Of a DNA stretch of 64,000 nt, positions 2,349 to 4,268 are shown one piece after another; positions within the stretch are counted from its first letter, which is position 1; each line of letters opens with the position of its first letter. Location of the stretch: positions 1 through 64,000 of the forward strand of contig JACPMX010000011.1 of NCBI GenBank assembly GCA_016185755.1, written 5' to 3'. Both the position numbers and the translations under genes were made by a program. The notes beneath the pieces are model-generated. The model was not told where the DNA came from. It was given only the letters and a program-made list of their open reading frames with translations, and searched no databases. This DNA comes from Candidatus Woesearchaeota archaeon (lineage in GTDB: Archaea; Nanobdellota; Nanobdellia; Woesearchaeales; GW2011-AR4).

Positions 2349-3371
2349 ATGAAAGAAAATAAAGAAATAGCAGAATGTGTTGGCTTATGGCTAGCAGAAG
2401 GTGATGATAAATGCAATAATGAGATTACTTTTACTAATAACCAGTTTGAGCTAATTGAATTCTTCCATAAAAATATCAAGAAATTGTTCTTAAATTATAA
2501 ATTCAATATAAGAATCTATGTTTACACTCCTAATGGCGAAAATGTAACAGTTCCGTTAGAAGTTACTAAAGTAAATAGGTACATAGACAATAGGGCAAAT
2601 AAGCCTTATTATATTTGGAGATTAGCATCCGTAGAATTACATAGAAAATGGAAGAATATTGTAGAATTGTATAAAAATAATTCTACTTTCTATGTAGACA
2701 TACTAAGAGGATTCTTTGCTGGAGAAGGAAGTATAAAATCAACTTCACATAACAGCAGATCAGTAATGATTTCTCAATTACCCAGCATTTTCTTAGAAAA
2801 AATGCTTCGACACCTTGAAATAGAATTTAAGTATCATCCTGGAAATAGGAGTTATTTCATTACTCACTGGGATAATTGGGATAAACTAGCCAAAATCAAA
2901 ATAGCTGATTTACATTCGGCAAAGAAAGAAAAATTTTGGAAAATTTATGATGAATTTAAGGAACGCCATTATAAAAGCCACCATATTATGGAGGATACAC
3001 TTCGATTGTTAATTGCCCCTTATATGACTTCTGAACTTGCAATTATTTTTGATAGAACAGAAGCCAGAATTCAAGATGTTTTAATTGACTTAAAAAGTAG
3101 GGGCGTTATCAATAATTTTAAATGTGGTCTAAAAACTTATTGGATAAAAAATGACCAAAATGTTGTAATAATATCTAAATTAAAATGGAACTATCTCAAT
3201 TTCCTAGAAAACAAACCAACAAATACGGCAGAAATAGCAAAGTTTTTTAATGTGAATTTTCATTCATCAAAAAAGAGACTTAAAGAATTAGAAAAATTAG
3301 GTCTTGTCATAAGAAAAATAGATAAAAAATGGGAAAAAATTAATCCTGCTAAAAAGGTGATTGTTTTATGA
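2349..3371 (+). CDS. LAGLIDADG homing endonuclease-like protein with C-terminal HTH-like region
   Basis: Two LAGLIDADG-type motifs: CVGLWLAEGDD and LRGFFAGEGSI; SD GGAGGT upstream of ATG 2349. Confidence 0.8.
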   Translation: MKENKEIAECVGLWLAEGDDKCNNEITFTNNQFELIEFFHKNIKKLFLNYKFNIRIYVYTPNGENVTVPLEVTKVNRYIDNRANKPYYIWRLASVELHRKWKNIVELYKNNSTFYVDILRGFFAGEGSIKSTSHNSRSVMISQLPSIFLEKMLRHLEIEFKYHPGNRSYFITHWDNWDKLAKIKIADLHSAKKEKFWKIYDEFKERHYKSHHIMEDTLRLLIAPYMTSELAIIFDRTEARIQDVLIDLKSRGVINNFKCGLKTYWIKNDQNVVIISKLKWNYLNFLENKPTNTAEIAKFFNVNFHSSKKRLKELEKLGLVIRKIDKKWEKINPAKKVIVL

Positions 3372-4268
3372 CATTAGTCTGTGGCATTGATGAGGCAGGC
3401 AGAGAGCTTTAAAGGTTCGCCTTAAGGCCCCATCATTGGTCCCTTAGTAATGTGTGGTTTTCAGATAGAAGAGAAGCAAGAAATCCAGTTAAGGAAGATA
3501 AAAGTAAAGGATTCAAAGCTTTTAACTAGAGAAGAGAGGGAAGACCTGTACACTCAAATACTTAAAATTTCTGATAAATACAAAATAGTAATAATAAATT
3601 CACAAGAAATTGATAGAGCTGTGCAAGGTCATGATGGTTTAAACCTAAATTGGCTAGAAGCTGATAAATCAGCCGAAATACTAAATGATTTAGCACCAGA
3701 TAAGGCAATCATAGATGCTCCAGGAAATAATATTGAAAAATATAAGAATTATCTTTCAAAGAAGATAAATAATAAGAAGATTAACTTAGTCTTAGAGCAT
3801 AAAGCAGACGTTAATTATCCGATTGTTAGTGCCGCTTCTATTTTGGCTAAAGTGACCAGAGACACTGAAATAGAGCTATTAAAAAAGCAAATAGGCATTG
3901 ATTTCGGCTCCGGCTACATGTCAGATCCCAAGACAGTGGAGTTCCTGCAAAAAAACTTCGAAAAATATCCTGACATGTTCAGGAAAAGCTGGTTTCCATA
4001 CCGGGAGCTTGTGAACAAAAAATTCCAGAAAAGCCTTTCAGATTTCACTCAGTTTTTGAAGGAAGAGAAGAAGCACAAAGGGCACACCCTGGAAGACCTG
4101 AAAAAGCTCGAGGATTTCGGCTATCACTTCGAAAAGCCCAAGTCAGAGCATGAGCTTGCAGTCATGAAAGGGCCTGCAACTGTTATTCTTTACAAGAACG
4201 GAAAACTGCTTGTGCAGGGAAAGGATGACGCTAAAAAATCCGTAAGCAATCTTCTTGGCTCCGGTTAA
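3368..4268 (+). CDS. rnhB: Ribonuclease HII, reading frame interrupted by a 22-nt insert in the catalytic motif
   Basis: MTLVCGIDEAGR[22 nt]GPIIGPLVMCGFQ...KVKDSKLL...ADVNYPIVSAASILAKVTRD...FGSGYMSDP; start overlaps the upstream stop (ATGA). Confidence 0.88.
3405..3426 (+). other. 22-nt hairpin insert (UUCG loop) within the rnhB codons for GRG
   Basis: AGCTTTAAAGGTTCGCCTTAAG; removal joins AGA-G to GC-CCC giving RGP; TAA at 3410-3412 in frame. Confidence 0.9.

Follow-up and report, generated by a model that had tools for sequence, protein, structure and literature searches.

The rnhB gene of a tiny-genome Candidatus Woesearchaeota archaeon, encoding RNase HII, is split within its catalytic motif by a 22-nt insert. 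This insert is very probably (about 0.92 in our estimation) a bulge-helix-bulge (BHB) intron that is cut from the mRNA by the archaeal tRNA-splicing system, as its structure, its conservation and the enzymes of the genome suggest. The gene lies in a stretch of 64,000 nt (positions 1 to 64,000 of contig JACPMX010000011.1, assembly GCA_016185755.1), referred to here as the window, in which all coordinates are given; the genome of the window is a 16-contig metagenome-assembled genome. It also appears fairly probable that this pre-mRNA intron is mobile and spreads by collaborative homing with an upstream LAGLIDADG endonuclease, a reading that draws on co-occurrence, adjacency, fold and patchy distribution.

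The Insert and Its Host Gene

The insert is present in the window sequence exactly as first read, and the original prediction that it splits the RNase HII motif, and that its exact removal restores the gene, is borne out. rnhB starts at ATG 3368-3370 and, with the insert kept, its frame ends at TAA 3410-3412, as had been predicted. Removal of the 22 nt yields an uninterrupted 292-aa RNase HII ending at 4268 (TIGR00729, E=8.5e-60), the downstream frame being intact to that point, and excision rebuilds GIDEAGRGPIIGP exactly. The same protein results from three possible cut registers. The register chosen by structure, AG/AGAGCTTTAAAGGTTCGCCTTA/AGG (slashes mark cuts), places the intron at 3403-3424, so that the length and the restored product originally given stand, while the position, 3405-3426, moves 2 bases upstream. 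The gene is accordingly divided into:

3368-3402 (+): rnhB exon 1, 35 nt, encoding MTLVCGIDEAG plus the AG of the split Arg codon
3403-3424 (+): predicted BHB intron, 22 nt, AGAGCUUUAAAGGUUCGCCUUA; a covarying BHB lies at these exact boundaries, and removal restores DEAGRGP
3425-4268 (+): rnhB exon 2, from the A of the split Arg codon to the stop TAA

The original prediction had also raised the option of a recent inactivating insertion, that is, a pseudogene from which a truncated 272-aa product (from M3450) or none at all is made. The unspliced frame does stop, and databases hold a predicted truncated protein starting MCGFQ from many contigs, but this product lacks the catalytic DEAGRG motif, rnhB is the sole PF01351 match found in the genome, and comparisons between intron-bearing relatives give an omega of 0.06-0.10 for the spliced gene, which indicates purifying selection. 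In addition, inserts at the same site with compensatory changes occur in tens of lineages (see below). Because of this wide, structure-conserving distribution, together with the purifying selection, a recent inactivating insertion is excluded for practical purposes.

No second copy of the insert was found within 3 mismatches in the window or the whole genome. A scan of window positions 3000-4000 gave no Rfam match; a self-splicing group I or II intron was rejected on the basis of this lack of a ribozyme match and of insert lengths of only 19-45 nt.

A Predicted Bulge-Helix-Bulge Around the Proposed Splice Sites

The minimum-energy fold of 3380-3450 is a BHB and not the UUCG hairpin that had been originally proposed, and in this fold the in-frame UAA forms the apical triloop of the inner intron hairpin. 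The UUCG tetraloop hairpin is not conserved among relatives either, and was rejected as the functional fold. The predicted elements are:

3388-3396 (+): outer exon:exon helix, 5′ strand, pairing with 3427-3435
3397-3400 (+): central 4-bp BHB helix, 5′ strand AGGC (exon 1), from minimum-energy fold and covariation
3401-3403 (+): 5′ bulge AG/A, 3 nt, with the 5′ splice site
3404-3418 (+): inner intron hairpin GAGCUU-UAA-AGGUUC, stem 3404-3409/3413-3418, loop formed by the in-frame stop
3419-3422 (+): central 4-bp BHB helix, 3′ strand GCCU (intron), from minimum-energy fold and covariation
3423-3426 (+): 3′ bulge UA/AG with the 3′ splice site
3427-3435 (+): outer exon:exon helix, 3′ strand, pairing with 3388-3396

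A canonical BHB has 3-nt bulges, and the cuts fall between the second and third bulge bases; by these rules the intron comprises 3403-3424.

Conservation, Covariation and Distribution Among Relatives

Comparison with rnhB of close relatives, which the original prediction had proposed as a check, showed that some 27 genomes of the order carry an insert at this site. In the relatives G002, G022 and G025 the inserts measure 22, 31 and 37 nt, and a pattern scan recovered the three corresponding public Woesearchaeota genomes plus 11 further rnhB metagenome contigs (the matches L050, L058, L061 and L066, which are not rnhB, were excluded). A first covariance model added further inserts across many families of the order, and three more insert-bearing rnhB loci surfaced via their endonuclease genes. 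A second covariance model marked 26 of the 356 genomes from the order (Woesearchaeota), a number that G206 from the first model brings to 27; outside the order but within the class it gave 15 long matches, the shorter matches (43-44 nt) being intronless genes.

The position within the Arg codon (AG/A) is the same in all 35 measured loci. The introns range from 19 to 45 nt, with length classes 0, 1 and 2 mod 3 all present and interiors that are unlike one another; they nearly always contain an in-frame stop, and their removal yields a product with the RNase HII motif at every locus that was parsed. The minimum-energy folds of most loci show a BHB with a 4-bp central helix at the exon-intron junctions. 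When boundaries were taken from the protein and not from the structure, this exon:intron helix was paired in 139 of 140 cells over the 35 loci, in 13 distinct combinations, as compared with a mean of 0.79 and a maximum of 0.89 of cells in 20,000 shuffles. The combinations include AGGC/GCCU, AGGA/UCCU, CGGA/UCCG, CGGG/CCCG, GGGU/GCCC and UGGU/GCCA, and A-U, G-C, C-G and U-A all occur at one position. Over the whole structure, for which the alignment was fitted to the model, unlike the protein-bounded count, 92.6% of cells are paired versus 81.8% after shuffling (none of 500 shuffles reached this level) and 52% or less after sliding, with 73 double-changed cells versus 16.8. In other orders, nine parsed loci add 34 of 36 paired central-helix cells, a count that leaves out L133, L139, L140, L142 and L144, which the script did not parse; read by eye, the BHB of L144 appears shifted by one base.

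This conservation also bears on ribosome bypassing, another option of the original prediction, according to which the ribosome would hop over the hairpin from GGC 3398-3400 to GGC 3426-3428. The matching codons exist in the window, close to a hairpin, but take-off and landing codons agree in no more than 15 of the 35 loci, the conserved Arg would be missing from the bypass product, and the pairing that is conserved joins exon to intron at the proposed splice sites, all of which makes bypassing highly improbable. An assembly artefact, or a mixture of alleles, could be suspected in a window taken from a metagenome-assembled genome. It is refuted, and has the least credence of all the explanations considered, because the same insert is carried by the independent assemblies RIFCSPLOWO2_01_FULL_38_40, ARS74 and BS150m-G66 as well as the 11 metagenome contigs; one cluster of the truncated protein covers 21 contigs from several sources.

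The distribution of the intron is patchy. On a 93-row rnhB tree built from exon 2, its presence changes at least 17 times, 4 of these changes being forced by well-supported branches, and intron-bearing and intronless rows are intermixed within one family. A same-genus intronless sister clade (L031, L035-L040, L042-L044, L048) carries DEARRG or DESRRG at the intron site, DEAGRG being otherwise near-universal; the altered motif possibly reflects resistance to the endonuclease, or a changed enzyme.

Splicing Machinery and tRNA Introns

The genome encodes one EndA-family protein (197 aa from an internal start), which resembles the single-subunit type, and contains many intron-containing tRNAs. A candidate exon-joining enzyme is encoded inside the window:

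33107-34420 (+): rtcB, RNA ligase (PF01139, E=1.2e-174)

In the proposed mechanism, the rnhB pre-mRNA would fold into the BHB: AGGC of exon 1 would pair with GCCU of the intron, with exon:exon pairing on the outer side and the intron hairpin on the inner side. EndA would cut both bulges (AG/A and UA/AG), freeing the 22 nt, and RtcB would then join AG to AGG, bringing GATGAGGCAGGCAG to AGGCCCCATC, so that DEAG-R-GP could be read. The splicing-like removal from the mRNA that was among the original options is thus strongly supported by the covarying same-site BHB and the presence of the enzymes; the fold and boundaries first assigned did not hold, and EndA, RtcB and the homing endonuclease gene had been missed.

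Several points weigh against splicing. Taken by itself, the window fold is unexceptional (z -0.66, with 39 of 200 shuffles equally stable), so that the case for the BHB rests on comparative evidence, and its 3′ bulge has 4 nt in the minimum-energy fold as against the canonical 3. Only one EndA-type subunit was found, and cbf5 introns have been linked to hetero-oligomeric enzymes (PMC2738675). Among protein-database matches, no spliced full-length product from an intron-bearing lineage was recognised, none being close enough.

A tRNA gene with an intron of its own provides a syntenic landmark upstream of rnhB:

2043-2146 (+): gene for initiator tRNA-Met, its D arm interrupted by a 29-nt intron (2058-2086)

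This D-arm intron is non-canonical, and the gene was missed by ARAGORN; the intron is common to some relatives (L016, L031, L033), whereas in L043 and L048 it is a different arm that carries an insert. The splice context GGGCAG/A...GCCTAA/ resembles that of rnhB, AGGCAG/A...GCCTTA/. This likeness hints at the tRNA intron as donor of the rnhB intron, but no more than that, because it is for the most part imposed by the helix.

The Upstream LAGLIDADG Gene and the Homing Model

The gene preceding rnhB is predicted to encode a homing endonuclease:

2349-3371 (+): LAGLIDADG homing endonuclease gene, free-standing; the product has winged-helix domains in its C-terminal part, and the stop codon overlaps the start of rnhB (ATGA, 3368-3371)

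Two LAGLIDADG motifs, VGLWLAEGD and ILRGFFAGEG, are conserved, and PF14528 is matched in seven of eight family members, the window copy falling just below the cut-off. A sequence search for relatives with a solved structure returned none; a fold search was therefore used, and the predicted structure (pLDDT 93.4) matches I-DmoI (E about 1e-6) and I-Tsp061I. The gene has 399 database relatives, some of them named winged-helix regulators, and an omega of 0.16; no family member was found in viral contigs.

The endonuclease family adjoins 17 of 27 intron-bearing rnhB genes versus approximately 1 of 288 intronless ones (the 315 genomes with rnhB minus the 27), a co-occurrence that suggests collaborative homing. 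In a survey of 362 genomes, every strong match to the endonuclease whose surroundings can be seen adjoins rnhB and lies directly upstream of it; 17 of these rnhB genes have the intron and 1 lacks it, and a further match stands at a contig end. The sole intronless neighbour (G275) is a C-terminally truncated copy. In one genome (G019, locus L031), the rnhB motif follows an initiator tRNA-Met gene at a distance of approximately 100 bp, and both the endonuclease gene and the intron are missing, which represents an empty-site arrangement.

Under collaborative homing, the intron would be kept partly as a mobile element. The endonuclease would cut the uninterrupted DEAGRGP codons, and repair would copy the endonuclease gene, the 35-nt exon 1 and the intron together. 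The intron would hide the endonuclease's own cut site, and the host tRNA-splicing enzymes would make it harmless. A homing element, with its presumed DNA cleavage, that invades, becomes fixed, decays and is lost again would be expected to leave degraded copies, an empty site and repeated changes in presence.

Three observations temper this model: the Fisher test behind the co-occurrence (p = 2.7e-20) treats related genomes as independent; the endonuclease gene is absent in 10 of the 27 intron-bearing genomes; and several endonuclease copies are degraded by stops, a frameshift or truncation. A possible, though clearly less probable, alternative is that the spliced BHB intron is old, vertically inherited and lost many times, with the LAGLIDADG gene as an unrelated hitch-hiker. 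The 10 genomes without the gene fit this alternative, as do branches that are intron-bearing throughout (e.g., family f40). Furthermore, a second LAGLIDADG type sits in the tRNA-rnhB spacer, also beside intronless genes, so that this spacer is perhaps no more than a hot spot. On the other hand, a hitch-hiker accounts poorly for the preference for intron-bearing genes and the invariably upstream position, or for the interleaving of intron-bearing and intronless rows in one family.

Other arrangements were noted around the LAGLIDADG genes. At L116 and L117 the endonuclease open reading frame (ORF) is in frame with rnhB exon 1, giving a fused endonuclease and RNase HII exon 1. The second LAGLIDADG ORF type, which differs from the first, lies close to rnhB in several relatives (L043, L065, L048, L056, L037, L130, L039, L054), in many cases within the tRNA-rnhB spacer and in either orientation; at another place in this genome it is present beside a tRNA that contains an intron (L161/L103, near a tRNA-Arg). 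At L006 (G039), 2103-2885 (-), the ATG of an intronless rnhB is overlapped by yet another LAGLIDADG ORF. Window positions 2208-2348, just before the endonuclease ATG (counted as its N-terminus in the ORF list), recur at G000:C6:35463-35663 (-) and G000:C16:99126-99269 (-), and a similar stretch precedes other LAGLIDADG genes (NKKLWRLIKM in L043); it is perhaps a shared leader or promoter.

Relation to Known Systems

The closest parallel is provided by the cbf5 introns of Crenarchaeota, BHB introns of 16-44 bp, a length described as insufficient for an endonuclease (PMC2738675). Like the 19-45 nt introns of rnhB, they are short BHB introns in a protein-coding gene, with a variable interior, conserved exon-intron pairing and patchy gain and loss. 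Unlike cbf5, the host gene is here rnhB, interrupted in its catalytic motif, in Woesearchaeota and relatives; the genome shows one EndA-type subunit instead of a hetero-oligomeric enzyme, and a homing endonuclease gene is adjacent. Putative introns in other genes were predicted earlier (PMC2738675), and a 2020 paper gives cbf5 as the only further BHB intron reported (PMC7714728). No mention of rnhB or Woesearchaeota pre-mRNA introns was found in the open literature, subscription papers and preprints being outside the search.

Archaeal tRNA and rRNA BHB introns with I-DmoI-type LAGLIDADG endonucleases share the BHB signal and the endonuclease fold (closest to I-DmoI, also I-Tsp061I), but the rnhB intron sits in an mRNA, and the associated endonuclease gene is not contained in it but located upstream of the 35-nt exon 1. 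In the collaborative homing of F-CphI and the cyanophage psbA group I intron (PMC6083498), a free-standing endonuclease gene likewise stands beside an intron-containing gene, with the intronless allele as the proposed target. rnhB differs in being an archaeal cellular gene with a 22-nt intron that is probably spliced by proteins rather than a ribozyme, and in having a LAGLIDADG rather than an Endo VII-type enzyme, whose cleavage is proposed. Finally, the BHB of HVO_1309 in Haloferax is an EndA substrate in an mRNA (PMC7714728), as predicted for rnhB; the Haloferax element is located in the 5′ UTR, whereas that of rnhB is within the coding sequence and its removal is needed to read the active site.

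rnhB would add a second gene after cbf5, the only confirmed coding-sequence case in the literature consulted (PMC2738675, PMC7714728), from a remote archaeal lineage whose splicing enzyme is simpler. Such tiny BHB introns have no room for an endonuclease gene of their own, which had left their mode of movement unexplained; homing offers a plausible route. Since gene callers predict a truncated RNase HII without the catalytic motif for these genomes, a gene of such archaea with a broken frame should be called a pseudogene only after BHB introns have been looked for.
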